Positions 14,633 through 59,183 of a stretch of 64,000 nt of DNA are shown here, piece after piece. Source of the DNA: Chromohalobacter marismortui. GTDB taxonomy: Bacteria; Pseudomonadota; Gammaproteobacteria; Pseudomonadales; Halomonadaceae. The DNA lies in contig NZ_SOBR01000001.1 in NCBI RefSeq assembly GCF_004364315.1, forward strand, positions 434,001 through 498,000. Direction: 5' to 3'. Position 1 is the stretch's first letter. Each line of letters begins with the position of its first letter. A model generated the notes under the pieces. It saw only the letters and a program-made list of their open reading frames with translations, did no database searches and had not been told where the DNA came from. The position numbers were made by a program, and so were the translations under genes.

Positions 14633-15607
14633 TCAAGGCGTACAGGCGAAGCTGGGGCCGGGTGCGGGGACCAGTGGTGCCTTGAAATGGGCGTTCAGCT
14701 CCGGCAGCAGTTCCCTGACGAAACGCAGGAAGAGCTCGGTCACGGGCGTGGGGTAGCGATCCTTGGGGTGCACGGTGCACCAGGACCTGCGCAGCGGAAA
14801 GCCGGGCAGCGTCGGTGAGGCCAGAAGGCCCGACGCGAGTTCGAGCTGTACCGCCAGGCGGGGCAGCACGGCGACCCCGAGGTGCGCCATGACGCCCTGT
14901 TTGATGGCCTCGTTGGTGCCGAGCTCGAGGGTATGACGTAGCGACACCCGCTCGCGGGCGACGAAGTCCTCGAAGGCGGTGCGCGTTCCCGAGCCGGGCT
15001 CACGCATGAGGACGTAATAGCGCGTGAAATCCTCGAGGGTAGGGGATTCGGCCGTCAGCAGTGGATGCCCGGGCCACACCACGGGAATCATTTCATTGTC
15101 GAGAATCGGCATGAAGGCGAGATTGGCATCCTCGGGCACCATGCCCATGATCACCAGGTCATCGCGGCGTTCGGCGAGACGCTCCAGAGCCTGCCCGCGG
15201 TTGCAGACGCGCAGGCGTACCTGAACTTCCGGATAGCGTGCGCGAAAGCGTGCCAGGATGTGAGGCACCACGTACTGTGCGGTGCTCACCGCGGCGAGGT
15301 TGAGCTCGCCGCGGATGGTCCCTGCCAGTTCGGAAAGCTCCATCTGCAGGCTCGACACCTGGCCGAAGATCGACTGCACCGAGGCGGCCAATGCATCGGC
15401 GGCGGGGAGGACGTGCAGCGTTTTGCCTGCGTACTTGAAGAGAGGCTGTTCGAGTGCCTGCTCGAGTTGGCGAATCTGAGCGCTGACGGCGGGCTGCGTC
15501 AGGCCGAGTTGTTCGGCTGCACGCGAGTAAGACTGCTGCCGGTGCACGGCCTGGAAGACCTGCAATTGGCGAAAGGTCAGGCGGTTGAGCAAATTGGGTC
15601 GTGACAT
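14633..15607 (-). CDS. LysR-type regulator, probably of pyruvate carboxylase
   Basis: This is a 324-residue LysR protein. The winged helix-turn-helix occupies roughly residues 8-66 (FRQLQVFQAVHRQQSYSRAA, then LGLTQPAVSAQIRQLEQAL), followed by a periplasmic-binding-like effector domain. It resembles the CbbR subgroup in its N-terminus. It diverges from pycA with 173 bp between the starts, the usual layout for a LysR gene and its target. Pseudomonas aeruginosa has the same pair, with PycR next to pycAB. A dyad, ATAAGC-TATT-GCTTAT, lies at 15626-15641 between them. Regulation of pycAB is inferred from this arrangement. The effector is unknown. Confidence 0.9.
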   Translation of the reverse strand: MSRPNLLNRLTFRQLQVFQAVHRQQSYSRAAEQLGLTQPAVSAQIRQLEQALEQPLFKYAGKTLHVLPAADALAASVQSIFGQVSSLQMELSELAGTIRGELNLAAVSTAQYVVPHILARFRARYPEVQVRLRVCNRGQALERLAERRDDLVIMGMVPEDANLAFMPILDNEMIPVVWPGHPLLTAESPTLEDFTRYYVLMREPGSGTRTAFEDFVARERVSLRHTLELGTNEAIKQGVMAHLGVAVLPRLAVQLELASGLLASPTLPGFPLRRSWCTVHPKDRYPTPVTELFLRFVRELLPELNAHFKAPLVPAPGPSFACTP

Positions 15608-15625
15608 GACGTCCCCGGCGTGGTC

Positions 15626-15641
15626 ATAAGCTATTGCTTAT
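15626..15641. promoter_or_regulatory. Putative LysR operator dyad
   Basis: A perfect inverted repeat, ATAAGC with 4-bp spacer TATT and GCTTAT, lies 19 bp upstream of the LysR start and 140 bp upstream of pycA. The AT-rich dyad form and its position in the divergent intergenic region fit a LysR-type binding site. Confidence 0.5.
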
Positions 15642-15730
15642 AGCGTGGCAAAAAAATATCAATTTTTCTATTGGTCCTTCGGTGGGTAGCGTGAGAGGAC
15701 GGATAACAAGCACGCTACGACCCAAACGGA

Positions 15731-15759
15731 CGCCCAGCTAACCGACGGTTAGCTGGGCG
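15731..15759 (+). promoter_or_regulatory. Perfect 13-bp hairpin in the pycA leader
   Basis: CGCCCAGCTAACC (15731-15743) and GGTTAGCTGGGCG (15747-15759) are exact reverse complements separated by GAC. The hairpin ends 21 nt before the GTG start of pycA, next to the GGAGGG ribosome-binding site (about 15769-15774). No U-run follows, so it is not a simple terminator. It may be an RNA element acting on translation, or a protein-binding palindrome. Confidence 0.6.
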
Positions 15760-15780
15760 CCTGAAACCGGAGGGCAGACG

Positions 15781-17196
15781 GTGTTCAAGAAACTTCTCAT
15801 CGCCAATCGTGGCGAAATCGCTGTACGCATTGTACGCGCCTGCGCCGAGATGGGCATCCGCTCGGTGGCGATCTACACCGAACCCGATCGCTTCGCGCTG
15901 CACGTCAAGCGCGCCGATGAGGCGCATTTCGTGGGCGAAGATCCGTTGGCGGGTTACCTCGATCCGCGACGTATCGTCGATCTGGCCCGCGAAACGGGGT
16001 GTGACGCGATCCACCCCGGCTACGGCTTCCTTTCGGAAAATGCCGATTTCGCACGTATCTGCGAAGACGCCGGTCTCGCCTTCGTGGGGCCGGATGCCAG
16101 CGTGATCGCGCGGATGGGCGACAAGACGGCCGCACGTGCGGCGATGCGTGACGCCGGCGTCCCCGTGACGCCGGGGTCGGACGGCAACCTCGAGACCTGT
16201 GTCGAGGCCTTGTCGCTGGCCGAGACCATCGGCTATCCGGTCATGCTCAAGGCGACTTCAGGGGGCGGGGGCCGTGGCATTCGCCGTTGCGATACCCCGG
16301 CGCAGCTCGAGCAGGGCTGGGAGCGGGTGATCTCCGAGGCGACCAAGGCATTTGGCAGTGCCGACGTGTTCATGGAGAAATGCGTCGTCGAGCCACATCA
16401 CATCGAGGTGCAGATCCTCGCCGATAGCGTCGGCAACGTGATTCATCTCTTCGAGCGGGACTGTTCGATCCAGCGTCGCAACCAGAAGCTCATCGAGATC
16501 GCACCGAGCCCTCAGCTGACGCCCGAACAGCGGGCCTACGTCGGTGAAATGGCGGTTCGCGCGGCCAGCGCGGTGGGTTACGAGAATGCCGGCACCGTGG
16601 AGTTCCTCGTCAAGGGCAATGAGGTCTACTTCATGGAGATGAATACTCGGGTGCAGGTCGAGCACACCATCTCCGAAGCGATCACCGGGGTGGATATCGT
16701 GCGCGAGCAACTGCGCATCGCCGCGGGGCTCAAGCTCGCCTACCGCCAGGAAGACATACGCCACCACGGCTACGCGATCCAGTTCCGCATCAACGCCGAG
16801 GACCCCAAGAACGATTTCTTGCCGTCGTTCGGGCGCATCACGCGGTACTACGCCCCCGGCGGACCGGGGGTGCGCACCGATACCGCGATCTACACCGGCT
16901 ATACGATTCCGCCGTACTTCGACTCCATGTGCCTGAAACTGATCGTGTGGGGCATGAGCTGGGAGGAAACCCTCGATCGAGGGATTCGTGCCCTCAATGA
17001 CATGCGTCTACAGGGGGTCAAGACCACCGCACCTTATTATCAGGAAATCCTGCGCCACCCCGATTTTCGTAGCGGGCATTTCGACACCGGTTTCGTGCCC
17101 AATCATCCCGAGTTGCTCAATTACTCGGTCAAGCGCAATCCCGAGGAAGTCGCTCTGGCGATTGCCGCCGCCATCGCCGCCCACGCCGGTCTATAA
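15781..17196 (+). CDS. pycA: Pyruvate carboxylase subunit A (biotin carboxylase)
   Basis: This subunit carboxylates biotin using ATP and bicarbonate, the first half of pyruvate-to-oxaloacetate conversion. The 471-residue protein begins at GTG 15781 (MFKKLLIANRGEIAVRIVRA), with GGAGGG upstream. Family blocks are GYGFLSENADFA at 80-91, the ATP-grasp glycine loop KATSGGGGRGIR at 157-168, and EMNTRVQVEH. It resembles AccC, but it is followed directly by a carboxyltransferase/BCCP subunit rather than paired with accB. That makes it the A subunit of the two-subunit (Pseudomonas/Methanococcus type) pyruvate carboxylase. Only 13 bp separate it from pycB. The likely role is anaplerotic supply of oxaloacetate. 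Confidence 0.95.
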   Translation: MFKKLLIANRGEIAVRIVRACAEMGIRSVAIYTEPDRFALHVKRADEAHFVGEDPLAGYLDPRRIVDLARETGCDAIHPGYGFLSENADFARICEDAGLAFVGPDASVIARMGDKTAARAAMRDAGVPVTPGSDGNLETCVEALSLAETIGYPVMLKATSGGGGRGIRRCDTPAQLEQGWERVISEATKAFGSADVFMEKCVVEPHHIEVQILADSVGNVIHLFERDCSIQRRNQKLIEIAPSPQLTPEQRAYVGEMAVRAASAVGYENAGTVEFLVKGNEVYFMEMNTRVQVEHTISEAITGVDIVREQLRIAAGLKLAYRQEDIRHHGYAIQFRINAEDPKNDFLPSFGRITRYYAPGGPGVRTDTAIYTGYTIPPYFDSMCLKLIVWGMSWEETLDRGIRALNDMRLQGVKTTAPYYQEILRHPDFRSGHFDTGFVPNHPELLNYSVKRNPEEVALAIAAAIAAHAGL

Positions 17197-17209
17197 GGAG
17201 ATACCCATC

Positions 17210-19024
17210 ATGAATGCCGTATCATCTTCCCAGGTCAATATCACCGACGTCGTGTTGCGCGACGGCCACCAATCGCTGATTGCCACGCGTCTGCGCACCG
17301 AGGACATGCTGCCCGCCTGTGCCAAGCTGGACGCGATCGGCTATCACTCGCTGGAAGTCTGGGGTGGAGCGACTTTCGATGCGTGCGTGCGCTTTCTCAA
17401 GGAAGACCCGTGGGAGCGCCTGCGGGCCTTCAAGGAGGCCATGCCCAACACGCCGTTGCAGATGCTGCTGCGCGGGCAGAATTTGCTGGGATACCGCCAT
17501 TATGCCGATGATGTCGTCGAGCGCTTCGTCGCGCAGTCGGCGGACAACGGCGTCGATGTATTCCGCGTCTTCGATGCGCTCAACGACCTGCGCAACCTGG
17601 AAACCGCCATGCGCGCGGTCAAGGCCAGTGGCAAGCACGCCCAGGGCACGATCTGCTACACCGTGAGTCCGGTGCACACCCTGGCGATGTACGTGGACCA
17701 GGCCAAGCGCCTGATCGACATGGGCGCCGACTCGATCGCCATCAAGGACATGGCGGGCCTGTTGACGCCGTATGCCACGGGCGAACTGGTGGCGGCGCTG
17801 GTCGAGGCCGTGGACGTGCCGGTTCATCTGCATGCCCACGCCACCTCCGGGCTGGCGCCGATGTGTCATCTCAAGGCCGTGGAAGCAGGGTGCCGGCATA
17901 TCGATACCTGTATCTCGGCATTTGCCGGCGGTACCAGCCATCCGTCGACGGAAGCCATGGTCGCGGCCTTTCAGGGCACCGACTACGATACTGGCCTGGA
18001 TCTCGAAGCGCTCAAGGAGATTGGCGACTACTTTCGGGGCGTGCGCCAGAAGTATGCCGCCTTCGAAAGCGAGTTCACCCGCGAGGACGTCTCGGTACAG
18101 ATCAATCAGGTCCCGGGCGGCATGATGTCCAACCTCGCCAATCAGCTCAAGGAACAGAACGCGCTCTCCAAGATCCGCGACGTGTTCAACGAGATCCCGC
18201 GCGTGCGCGCCGATCTCGGCTATCCGCCCCTGGTCACGCCGACCTCGCAGATCGTCGGCACCCAGGCGGTGATGAACGTGCTGACCGGCGAGCGCTACAA
18301 GACCATCACCAACGAGGTGAAGCGTTATCTCCAGGGGGGGTATGGTCATCCGCCGGCGGCGGTGGACGCTAAGGTACGGCGTCAGGCCATTGGCAATTCC
18401 CCGGTGGAAGAAGGCCGTCCCGCCGATCGGTTGAATCCCGAAATGCAGCGCCTGACGAAGGATATCGGTGAACTGGCCGACAGTGAGGAAGACGTGCTGA
18501 CCTACGCCATGTTCCCCGAGTTGGGGCACGACTATCTTCAGGGACGGCGCGATGGCACGCTGGTGTCGGAGCCGATACCCGCGCCCGACGCGGGAGACGC
18601 CAACCGACCGGTCACCGAAGGCGTGCCGACGGAGTTCGTCATCGATGTACACGGCGAGTCCTACGAAGTGCAGATCACCGGCGTGGGCGGGAACAGCGGC
18701 GGCAAGCGTCAGGTCTATCTGACGCTCGACGGCATGCCGGAGGAGGTCGTCTTCGAAGCCAAGGACGCCTTCGTCGGCGGTGAGACTCCGGGGCGGGCAC
18801 GGGCCTCGCAGCCTGGCCATGTCACGACCTCCATGCCTGGCAACATCGTCGATGTCCTGGTCGCCAAGGGTGATCGTGTCGAGGAAGGCCAGGCGGTCTT
18901 GATCACCGAGGCGATGAAGATGGAAACCGAGGTCCAGGCACGGGTCTCGGGGACCGTCGAAGCGGTCCACGTCGCCAAGGGCGACCGCGTGACGCCCGGC
19001 GAAGTGCTGATCGAGATCACCTGA
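17210..19024 (+). CDS. pycB: Pyruvate carboxylase subunit B (carboxyltransferase-BCCP)
   Basis: This subunit transfers the carboxyl group from biotin to pyruvate, forming oxaloacetate. The 604-residue protein starts MNAVSSSQVNITDVVLRDG, with AAGGAG upstream. It contains the HMG-CoA-lyase-like TIM barrel with metal-binding motifs (RDGHQSL, AIKDMAGLLTP, HLHAHATSG), the conserved C-terminal carboxylase domain, and a biotinyl domain with EAMKMET. Lys570 of that motif, 35 residues from the C-terminus, is the biotinylation site. The same fold occurs in oxaloacetate decarboxylase alpha, but no beta or gamma membrane subunits are nearby and the biotin carboxylase partner is adjacent, so pyruvate carboxylase is favoured. 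Confidence 0.94.
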   Translation: MNAVSSSQVNITDVVLRDGHQSLIATRLRTEDMLPACAKLDAIGYHSLEVWGGATFDACVRFLKEDPWERLRAFKEAMPNTPLQMLLRGQNLLGYRHYADDVVERFVAQSADNGVDVFRVFDALNDLRNLETAMRAVKASGKHAQGTICYTVSPVHTLAMYVDQAKRLIDMGADSIAIKDMAGLLTPYATGELVAALVEAVDVPVHLHAHATSGLAPMCHLKAVEAGCRHIDTCISAFAGGTSHPSTEAMVAAFQGTDYDTGLDLEALKEIGDYFRGVRQKYAAFESEFTREDVSVQINQVPGGMMSNLANQLKEQNALSKIRDVFNEIPRVRADLGYPPLVTPTSQIVGTQAVMNVLTGERYKTITNEVKRYLQGGYGHPPAAVDAKVRRQAIGNSPVEEGRPADRLNPEMQRLTKDIGELADSEEDVLTYAMFPELGHDYLQGRRDGTLVSEPIPAPDAGDANRPVTEGVPTEFVIDVHGESYEVQITGVGGNSGGKRQVYLTLDGMPEEVVFEAKDAFVGGETPGRARASQPGHVTTSMPGNIVDVLVAKGDRVEEGQAVLITEAMKMETEVQARVSGTVEAVHVAKGDRVTPGEVLIEIT

Positions 19025-43849: not shown

Positions 43850-44049
43850 ACGCACTCGTCAAACATTACTGACGTAAAATCGTTGGTTGAGTCCAAGGCG
43901 CTCTAGGGCGTGTCCCGACATGATTTCGCGGGAAACCTGGGTATGTGCCCTGAAAGCGGCACGTCTCGTCATCCGCCTTGCCGTGGCCGGTCTTGCGTTG
44001 AGGCTTATCGCAGCGGTTTCTCATGCATCGAGAGGAGCAGGCGAACCTA

Positions 44050-45441
44050 ATGGCAGTTCACAATTATGACGTGGTGGTGATTGGCTCGGGCCCAGCGGGC
44101 GAAAGCGCTGCGATCAATGCGGCCAAGCACGGCAAGCGTGTAGCCATCGTCGAGAAGCAGCCAGCGGTAGGAGGAAACTGTACCCATTGGGGGACGATCC
44201 CGTCCAAGGCCCTGCGCCACCAAGTCAAGCAGATCATGCAGTTCAATACCAACCGCATGTTCCGCGATATCGGCGAACCGCGCTGGTTTTCCTTCCCTCG
44301 TGTGCTTGACCGTTCCAAGGTCACCATCGACCAGCAGGTCGAGATGCGTACCCAGTTCTATTCACGCAATCGCATCGATCTCTTCTTCGGGGTCGCCAAC
44401 TTTCGTGACGAGCACACCCTGGTCGTGCGGGACAATCAGGATGGCGCCGAGGAACTCTGCGCCCAGCAGTTCGTGATCGCCACCGGGTCTCGCCCTTATC
44501 GTCCCGCCGATATCAACTTCCGACATCCCCGTATTTATTGCTCGGACACCGTTCTCGGGCTTTCTCACACGCCGCGAACCTTGATCATCTTCGGCGCGGG
44601 TGTCATCGGTTCCGAGTATGCGTCGATTTTTTCAGGGCTCGGCGTCAAGGTCGACTTGATCGACATGCGTGAGCGTCTGTTGTCGTTTCTCGATGACGAG
44701 ATCAGCGACGCCTTGTCCTATCATCTGCGTCAGAATGGCGTGCTGGTTCGCCATAATGAAGATTACGAAAGCATCGAAGGCGATGAGTCCGGGGTGGTGG
44801 TCAAGCTCAAGTCCGGCAAGCGCCTGCGCGCGGATGCCTTTCTCTGGGCCAATGGACGGACGGGCAATACCGATCAACTGGGACTGGAAAACATCGGTCT
44901 CGAACCCAATGGGCGCGGTCAACTGCAGGTCGATGAGCATTATCGCACCATGGTGCCGCATATCTATGCCGTGGGGGATGTCATCGGTTGGCCGAGTCTG
45001 GCCAGCGCCGCCTATGACCAGGGGCGGAGTGCCAGCGACGACTTCCTGGAGGAAGACTTTCGCTTCGTCGAGGATATTCCCACCGGCATCTACACCATTC
45101 CCGAGATCAGCTCGGTGGGCAAGAACGAGCGTGAGCTGACCGAAGCCAAGGTGCCCTACGAGATCGCGCAGGCGTTCTTCAAGGACACCGCGCGTGCACA
45201 GATCACCGGCGACACCGTGGGGATGCTCAAGATCCTCTTCCACCGCGACACACTCGAGATTCTGGGCATTCACTGCTTCGGTGACCAAGCCTCCGAGATC
45301 GTGCATATCGGTCAGGCCATCATGCAGCAACAGGGCGAAGCGAATACGCTCAAGTATTTCATCAATACCACCTTCAACTACCCCACCATGGCCGAGGCCT
45401 ATCGTGTTGCTGCGCAAAACGGCTTGAACCGCCTATTCTGA
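44050..45441 (+). CDS. sthA: Soluble pyridine nucleotide transhydrogenase
   Basis: SthA exchanges hydride between NADPH and NAD, mostly to drain excess NADPH. The 463-residue flavoprotein has an N-terminal FAD Rossmann motif ([21 protein letters not shown]) and a second NAD(P) motif ([21 protein letters not shown]). In [17 protein letters not shown] the second redox cysteine of lipoamide dehydrogenase is replaced by Thr49, the mark that separates SthA from Lpd. The start [10 protein letters not shown] is at ATG 44050; a possible ATG at 44023 adds nine residues. It is separated from nqrM by 200 bp, so it probably has its own promoter. It ends at a perfect hairpin. Confidence 0.96.
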
Positions 45442-45502: not shown

Positions 45503-45531
45503 CAACGAGCCGGCACTGTGCCGGCTCGTTG
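45503..45531. terminator. Perfect hairpin between sthA and the tus-like gene
   Basis: CAACGAGCCGGCAC (45503-45516) and GTGCCGGCTCGTTG (45518-45531) are exact complements with one base between, giving a stem of about 12 bp. It sits between two convergent genes and probably ends transcription in both directions, although neither side has a long T-run. Confidence 0.65.
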
Positions 45532-45634
45532 CGTCGTGACATCCATCACCAGAAGAGCGGGTCATTCACCGCTGTCATGCACTAGCCAGCACGCTCAAGC
45601 AGCTGCCTTCCAGCAGTCGGGAAGTCTGCGGCAG

Positions 45635-46495
45635 CTAGCGGTAGCGATAGACTCGCAAGCTGGGCAGGAAAGGCGTGTCCTCGAGCTTCGTGTCGGCGCG
45701 TTGTGCGCGGCTACGTTCGCTGGGTGGGGTGGTCTTTGGCGTGTTGTGAGAGGGCAGGTGGCCATCCTCGGCGGGAATGAAAAGCGGCAGCGGCAGGTTC
45801 ATGGCACGCCGCATGCGTCCATCCGCGAGCGCGTCGCGAAAGAACAGGTTGGCACGCATGACGGGCGCCTGGGTTTGCACCTGGGCCAATGGCTCGCTGT
45901 CGGGGATGCCCGCCAAGTGACGCAGTTGAATGCGGATGTGTGGGCTCTCGGTATCCATTTCCATGAGCCGCCGTTCGGCATCGCGCACGCTCAAGCGTTT
46001 GATGGAGCGCCCGCTGGTATACCAGGCGAGGCGCACCCGCGACAGAGGCGCATCCGCCACGGGGAGGTGGCGCCAGCATTGCTTGAGGTGCAGGCGTGCC
46101 AAGCCTTGTCCGCGTAGATGGTCGTGCAGCGTGGGATGGCGAAAGGGCAATACCGCCTTGATCTCGGGGAGCAGGGTGGGCGCCTCTTGGCGAATCTCGG
46201 CCAGTGTCGCCGCGAAGGTCTGCTTGGCGCGATTGATGTCGGCGACGTACCCCAGCAATGCGGGGGATGCGGCGATCAAGCCGATGTAATTGCGCGTCGC
46301 GCGGCCGTCTTGACCATCCTGATACCAGAAGTCGAACAGGGCATGGCGCAGCCATGCGATATCGAAGGTGGTCTCCCCCAGTACCCAGCCCGTCGGTGGC
46401 GCGTGTTCGACATGGCCGATGAGCGCCTCGCAGGTTTCGATCACATGATCGAAGTCGTGTTCCAGGCGCGCCAGAAGGTGGTATTGCCGCTCCAT
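45635..46495 (-). CDS. tus: Tus-like DNA replication terminus site-binding protein
   Basis: This 286-residue protein resembles E. coli Tus (309 aa) over its centre and C-terminus. VADINRAKQTFAATLAEI lines up with Tus SHIQHINKLKTTFEHIV. The segment LSRVRLAWYTSGRSIKRL lines up with the Tus segment ATLRFGWANKHIIKNL, and the ends FLPSLRVYRYR and LIIPRLHLYVAD correspond. By ungapped eye alignment His126 and Gly131 fall at Tus His144 and Gly149, part of the pocket that traps the flipped cytosine. Tus arrests replication forks in one direction by binding Ter. The start ATG 46495 is preferred to TTG 46513. Family assignment is by recognition only. Binding and Ter sites are unproven here. Confidence 0.78.
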   Translation of the reverse strand: MERQYHLLARLEHDFDHVIETCEALIGHVEHAPPTGWVLGETTFDIAWLRHALFDFWYQDGQDGRATRNYIGLIAASPALLGYVADINRAKQTFAATLAEIRQEAPTLLPEIKAVLPFRHPTLHDHLRGQGLARLHLKQCWRHLPVADAPLSRVRLAWYTSGRSIKRLSVRDAERRLMEMDTESPHIRIQLRHLAGIPDSEPLAQVQTQAPVMRANLFFRDALADGRMRRAMNLPLPLFIPAEDGHLPSHNTPKTTPPSERSRAQRADTKLEDTPFLPSLRVYRYR

Positions 46496-59145: not shown

Positions 59146-59183
59146 AAAAAACGCCTGAAGGATTCCTCCTTCAGGCGTTTTTT
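59146..59183. terminator. Bidirectional terminator between murB and rne
   Basis: A 17-bp perfect stem, AAAAAACGCCTGAAGGA (59146-59162) and its complement at 59167-59183, surrounds loop TTCC. Runs of A and T on both flanks make it a terminator on both strands. Confidence 0.93.

Follow-up and report, generated by a model that had tools for sequence, protein, structure and literature searches.

A hairpin ahead of the pycA Shine-Dalgarno sequence keeps its place while its letters change among sampled Chromohalobacter genomes

We found that the hairpin in front of pycA in the window (the whole stretch of Chromohalobacter marismortui DNA analysed, 64 kb) is real, is well placed in the leader, belongs to a familiar class and is present in only one genus among those sampled, and that its evolution is more interesting than its likely function. 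Computation showed the stem itself, its single copy, its recurrence across the genus with the same geometry, its division into two sequence types (A and B) and the constraint on type B. The transcript start, control by a LysR-type regulator, a stabilising or standby role for the stem and a template switch in its history are what we infer. With about an even chance of being right, we read the element as a transcribed, sequence-flexible stem of the pycAB leader that stands upstream of the Shine-Dalgarno (SD) sequence without covering it and serves constitutively as a modest barrier to decay and/or as a standby element.

The hairpin occupies positions 15728-15761 of the window on the forward strand. 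The first-pass annotation had described an exact 13-bp inverted repeat with a 3-nt loop at a short distance from the SD and the GTG start codon, and the sequence check bore out both the repeat and the distances. At the DNA level the arms (15731-15744 and 15746-15759) are 14 nt each and 100% complementary around a single base, giving a 29 bp palindrome. In the RNA form 13 bp (15731-15743 with 15747-15759) enclose the 3-nt loop GAC, and two more pairs, GG at 15728-15729 with CC at 15760-15761, follow beyond a bulged A15730. From the end of the repeat at 15759 there are 9 nt to the SD GGAGGG (15769-15774, forward strand) and 21 nt to the GTG at 15781. The SD lies 6 nt upstream of the GTG and is identical in the 10 genus leaders. 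The extended stem, to 15761, ends 7 nt upstream of the SD, which takes no part in its pairing. When the pycA reading frame was extended upstream, a stop codon was met within the hairpin.

The hairpin had also been called too stable for chance, and this was confirmed. None of 3000 dinucleotide shuffles of a 48-nt leader slice matched its energy. In 12 sequences simulated from the 64-kb window with a first-order Markov model, inverted repeats (loop at most 10) numbered on average 2.0 with arms of at least 10 and 0.0 with arms of at least 12. Among 49 start-site leaders of the window, picked by a rough rule, this leader ranked top by folding z (-6.74; median -0.05). The hairpin sequence was found at a single place in its own genome with up to 3 mismatches allowed. 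A search of 15550-15850 with the Rfam 15 covariance models gave no match at E<=1. The sequence following the stem (CCTGAAACC) has no U-run and a terminator scan of 15000-16500 returned 0 terminator-like sites, in agreement with the earlier statement that this is not a normal terminator. Other perfect repeats with arms of at least 14 were located in the window at 45503-45531 and 59146-59183. The repeat at 45503-45531 has 14-bp arms and no T-run, lies 62 nt past the end of an ORF at 44023-45441 and overlaps the first bases of another at 45518-46117.

The gene behind the hairpin, pycA (15781-17196, forward strand, GTG start, 471 aa), encodes the alpha (biotin carboxylase) subunit of a two-subunit pyruvate carboxylase. 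Its product matches NCBIfam NF005525 with 926.7 bits (cut-off 768); the family is named acetyl-CoA carboxylase biotin carboxylase subunit in NCBIfam, and a pycB-like ORF lies after pycA. This ORF (17213-19024, forward strand; start selected within a longer ORF at 16988-19024) encodes a pycB/oadA-like subunit with carboxyltransferase and biotin carrier parts. It matches NF006761, pyruvate carboxylase subunit B, with 901.3 bits (cut-off 402), and TIGR01108 (oadA) is also above its cut-off. A divergent gene on the reverse strand (14633-15607) has LysR-family matches, the best of which is NF045990 CbbR at 222.8 bits, below the cut-off of 450. In P. aeruginosa the LysR-type PycR is described as upregulating the pyruvate carboxylase genes, with pycR immediately downstream of the operon (PMC5059739), whereas the Chromohalobacter gene is divergent and not downstream. 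By its position the divergent gene may be called PycR-like. Named relatives with a PycA identity of 97-99% are C. israelensis, C. moromii, C. beijerinckii, C. canadensis, C. sarecensis, C. nigrandesensis and Chromohalobacter sp. 296-RDG. A plasmid search gave 9 records, each covering at most 30% of the query, and their named features were mostly a carboxylase gene.

For comparison 70 family leaders were used, from all genomes with a PycA match at E 1e-200 among 201 searched (10 Chromohalobacter and 60 others). The stem folded at the same place in all 10 Chromohalobacter leaders examined, in the two sequence types. Type A comprises the window (15/15 pairs) and C. israelensis (13/15 pairs). Type B comprises eight species, for which a hand-made register gives 13-14 pairs out of 17 along with 3 internal mismatches; two of these species have lost the loop-closing pair. 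In total there are 6 distinct hairpins among the 10 genomes, and the loops read GAC, GTC, GCT or CGCTA. The distance from the stem apex to the slice end next to the SD, measured in five hairpin forms, was 24 nt in the window and C. israelensis and 25 nt in three type B forms. The type B hairpin was found at one place per genome in 8 of the 10 genomes and at none in 2. Folding z of the 48-nt slice averaged -2.68 over the genus leaders (range -0.54 to -6.7), and two stems were energetically like shuffles (L009, z -0.82; L010, z -0.54, equalled by 664 of 3000 shuffles). We regard the stem as a feature of the genus among the genomes sampled, mainly on account of type A and the common geometry.

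A covariation check across Halomonadaceae had been proposed by the first-pass annotation. Within the genus the stem stood up, being present in 10/10 leaders with some paired changes. Beyond the genus it did not, as the same 48-nt slice had a mean z of 0.11 in the 60 other leaders and only 2 of them were below -2. Those two (L070 and L072) are short leaders in which the slice extends into the promoter. In another genus, one pycR-pycA intergenic region (L083, genome G042) carries an unrelated hairpin of about 50 nt ahead of pycA, farther upstream than the tested slice, with a 12-bp inner and a 9-bp outer stem as judged by eye. This hairpin was found at one place in its own genome and in 0 of 4 other genomes of that genus (up to 3 mismatches). 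A different motif, roughly GTTTTTCGCATGCC...GGACGCAACC, stands directly before the pycA SD in 16 of the 60 non-Chromohalobacter leaders (L032-L038, L040, L041, L050, L055, L056, L058, L060-L062). The count comes from a strict expression, with a few further leaders similar by eye, and the motif may be a separate leader element.

In the window a LysR-type box (ATAAGCTATTGCTTAT, 15626-15641), an AT tract and the hexamer TAGCGT follow each other over 15626-15692 with a spacing that is fixed across most of the 70 family leaders. The AT tract was present (at most 6 mismatches) in 60 of the 70, and the box stood 19-20 nt upstream of it in 60. A TANNNT was found 13 or 14 nt behind the tract in 58 leaders, a count in which the expression picked the wrong TANNNT in L036, and TAGCGT itself in 51. 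The 10 leaders without a detectable AT-tract block are all from outside Chromohalobacter. We predict the AT tract and the -10-like TAGCGT (15687-15692) to form a conserved promoter block (15645-15692, forward strand), with the transcript start near 15699, 7 nt downstream of TAGCGT, and the LysR-type box centred near -65. The predicted 5' leader of the pycAB mRNA would thus run from 15699 to 15780 on the forward strand, about 82 nt. The distance from TANNNT to the start codon ranged from 44 to 145 nt in the 58 leaders, with C. israelensis (231, owing to an insertion) as the exception. Since the promoter block is rigid and the leader behind it is variable in length, the stem should form part of the transcript; whether it does had been left as a question before, and the promoter predicted from the family leaders suggests that it probably does.

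Some further features were observed in this region. An 8-bp inverted repeat (15686-15693 with 15711-15718) overlaps the -10-like hexamer; it is shared with C. israelensis and absent from the type B leaders. The insertion in the C. israelensis leader is about 140 bp long (about 2300-2440 of L092), sits downstream of the predicted start and ahead of the hairpin, has the ends GTACGAAAA/TTTTCGTAC and spares the promoter block, the stem and the SD. Similar sequences, whole or partial, gave 7-20 matches per genome in the 10 Chromohalobacter genomes, so that the insertion appears to belong to a MITE-type family within the genus.

The history of the stem was followed on a tree of 2900 alignment columns that begin in pycA and extend into pycB, with two rows serving as outgroup. 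C. israelensis branches first, the window second and the eight species of type B last (100/98, 100/99). The tree describes these genes, and recombination may have given the leader another history. Parsimony would make type A the older form and place the origin of type B on one short branch (0.027). As the two branches that precede type B both carry type A, the shape appears to have outlived the rewrite. Between the window and the main type B form 14 of 34 aligned sites differ (18/34 by pairwise alignment), and other cross-type pairs differ at 13-15. The window and C. israelensis differ at 6 of 34 sites in the hairpin, at 3 of 139 in the remaining noncoding sequence and at 64 of 250 fourfold sites. 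The comparison with the other noncoding sites indicates that the letters of the stem are loosely held between these two. Among the eight species of type B, 3 of 37 hairpin columns are variable, versus 135 of 234 fourfold sites (p 5e-9). One of the three changes lies at a mismatch, one produces a G-U pair and one affects the closing of the loop. The rest of the type B leader is also constrained (6/36 before the hairpin, 3/18 after it), and the difference in constraint between the hairpin and the preceding stretch is not significant (p 0.31).

Covariation was scored on a MAFFT alignment of 10 rows, 6 of them distinct. Over the 13 outer pairs, 81.6% of the cells were paired, compared to 24-55% in slid registers. 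Seven pairs were invariant, 1 changed on one side, 2 were doubly changed and 3 departed only by unpaired cells; the hand-made register gave 4 doubly changed pairs. The observed values were reached by 1 (paired fraction), 6 (covariation score) and 48 (doubly changed pairs) of 500 shuffles. Covariation appears to give the stem mild support.

The perfect stem of the window appears to be derived from an imperfect one. Its 5' arm carries GCCCAG, which is likely to be the derived form because C. israelensis and type B both have GCCACG there, and this two-base change completes the pairing of the 5' arm with the 3' arm. Another pair differs between the window and C. israelensis at both of its positions (C-G versus T-A), and the loop is inverted (GAC versus GTC) by one base. 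When 6 random changes were placed on the C. israelensis form, the full stem arose in 91 of 200000 trials, with the reservation that some of the six differences may lie on the C. israelensis branch. In the reverse direction, 6 random changes on the window form kept at least 13 pairs in 35347 of 200000 trials with G-U pairs and in 3954 without, so the comparison of trials shows little by itself.

One arm may have been copied onto the other on the window's own lineage, in a template-switch-like event that would leave a perfect stem. Template switching has been described as creating and repairing RNA hairpins (PMC8794818) and as homogenising arms and inverting spacers (PMC8604942), and a compensatory change together with a loop inversion is described as extremely rare (PMC8794818). 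Here the point about loop inversion is weak because the loop difference is one base. The Chromohalobacter hairpins are like the published cases in that neighbouring changes in one arm match the opposite arm and the loop is inverted; those cases, in the parts of the two papers drawn on (PMC8794818; PMC8604942), concern rRNA, microRNA genes and yeast coding DNA, whereas ours is one bacterial mRNA leader. A few point changes could instead have given the window stem. Our tentative and, on present weighing, unlikely scenario is that the hairpin was rewritten on the branch to the eight species, with place and shape kept, and that the window copy was perfected by one template switch.

An influence on translation had been suggested for the stem, and in the form of a direct hiding of the ribosome-binding site this found no support. 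The stem stops 7 nt before the SD, and the standby-site formula as quoted in PMC3936740 (H capped at 15) gave no penalty in 10/10 genomes if the upstream leader is unpaired, and 3.3-4.0 kcal/mol if only 5 nt are free. The surface was 36 in 9/10 genomes and larger in C. israelensis. In a longer predicted fold, coding sequence base-pairs with some of the upstream leader, and the start codon is largely taken up in pairs (unpaired 0.13). SD access in the window was 0.61 versus 0.40 for shuffled stems, a difference of about 1 standard deviation. In type A the wild type exceeded 80% and 86% of shuffled stems; in type B it was within one standard deviation of the shuffles in 8/8 leaders, and in silico deletion of the stem increased SD access in 8/8 species. 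Insulation of the SD by the stem was judged weak in type A, was not observed in type B and was dropped. Positions 15674-15683 can pair with 15766-15775, which contains the SD, and SD access was 0.0 when folding began at 15660 and 0.38-0.81 when it began at 15690-15715. Sequestration by 15674-15683 was set aside, as this stretch is upstream of the predicted start, in the promoter spacer.

An effect on mRNA stability had been suggested as well and is possible. A stabilising stem of the ompA type stands at the 5' end of the mRNA or a few nucleotides from it. The Chromohalobacter stem would begin 29 nt from the predicted 5' end (15728 versus about 15699), whereas the ompA-type stem is 5'-terminal according to a reference title in PMC7509114. 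The mRNA-stabilising 5'-UTR stem-loops treated in that source (ompA-type; A. baumannii recA, H. pylori vacA; PMC7509114) likewise have a strong stem upstream of a free SD. A stem too close to the SD is cited there as having decreased ermC mRNA stability in B. subtilis (PMC7509114). Structured standby-site modules (PMC3936740) likewise have one hairpin between flanking stretches before the SD, and here the flanks are 29-30 nt upstream in 9/10 genomes and 6-7 nt downstream before the SD. The passages drawn on from PMC3936740 report measurements on synthetic reporter leaders, whereas the Chromohalobacter geometry is a prediction and penalty-free only if the upstream stretch is unpaired. On our reading a stable stem at a fixed place would count for more than its letters, and under a LysR-controlled promoter it could slow the decay of the leader and/or provide the structured part of a standby site for the ribosome.

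The main rival is a neutral quasi-palindrome, that is, an inherited imperfect repeat that is occasionally homogenised by template switching in replication and has no selected RNA role. We find this rather doubtful but a serious possibility. The divergence between the window and C. israelensis would suit it, since the 6/34 at hairpin sites is somewhat below the fourfold 64/250 and far above 3/139, and so would the one-base inversion of the GAC/GTC loop between the two. Template switching is known to make or repair hairpins (PMC8794818) and to homogenise arms (PMC8604942), and the stems of two species (L009, L010) are indistinguishable from shuffles. What speaks against it is that type B is almost frozen over 8 species (3/37 columns) and that the shape was kept through a rewrite of 14/34 sites with the SD distance unchanged.

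Other readings have the hairpin act as a switch, as DNA or as a mobile element. In a conditional RNA switch or attenuator, pycA would be controlled through a competing fold of the stem or through a protein, sRNA or metabolite that it binds. The constraint of the leader would suit this, and in an RNA begun farther up than the promoter, 15674-15683 could pair with the SD-containing 15766-15775. However, this anti-SD stretch belongs to the promoter spacer and precedes the predicted start, the loops differ, a U-run is absent and Rfam gave no match (E<=1, 15550-15850), and we consider a switch very unlikely. A protein-binding palindrome had been an earlier suggestion too, and an odd-centred perfect 29 bp palindrome beside a promoter is what a dimeric regulator could bind as an operator. 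The suggestion was not sustained, because the half-sites differ among the window, C. israelensis and type B (14/34 between A and B, 6/34 within A). In addition, the conserved regulator-like box is elsewhere (15626-15641) and the palindrome would sit at about +33 to +61; an operator seems to us even less probable than a switch. Least probable of all is a REP-like mobile palindromic repeat or a terminator. The hairpin is compact, GC-rich and intergenic, but it has one place in the genome (up to 3 mismatches), the type B form occurs once in each of 8 genomes, the terminator scan was empty and the upstream gene is divergent. Terminator, Rfam family, repeated mobile palindrome and operator were rejected on the scan, the covariance search, the copy number and the differing half-sites, respectively.

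A literature search with partial coverage (titles and abstract starts) returned nothing on the pycA leader or its transcript start. Pyruvate carboxylase is described as part of the pyruvate node in flux studies of the ectoine-producing Chromohalobacter salexigens (PMC5299690). If the leader stem matters, the output of pycA would be set after transcription as well as at its LysR-type promoter. The 6 distinct natural hairpins in 10 genomes offer a ready-made small series for the question of shape alone. If the template-switch scenario is true, this would be a natural bacterial case in which template switching has created and preserved an mRNA hairpin that is selected for its shape alone.
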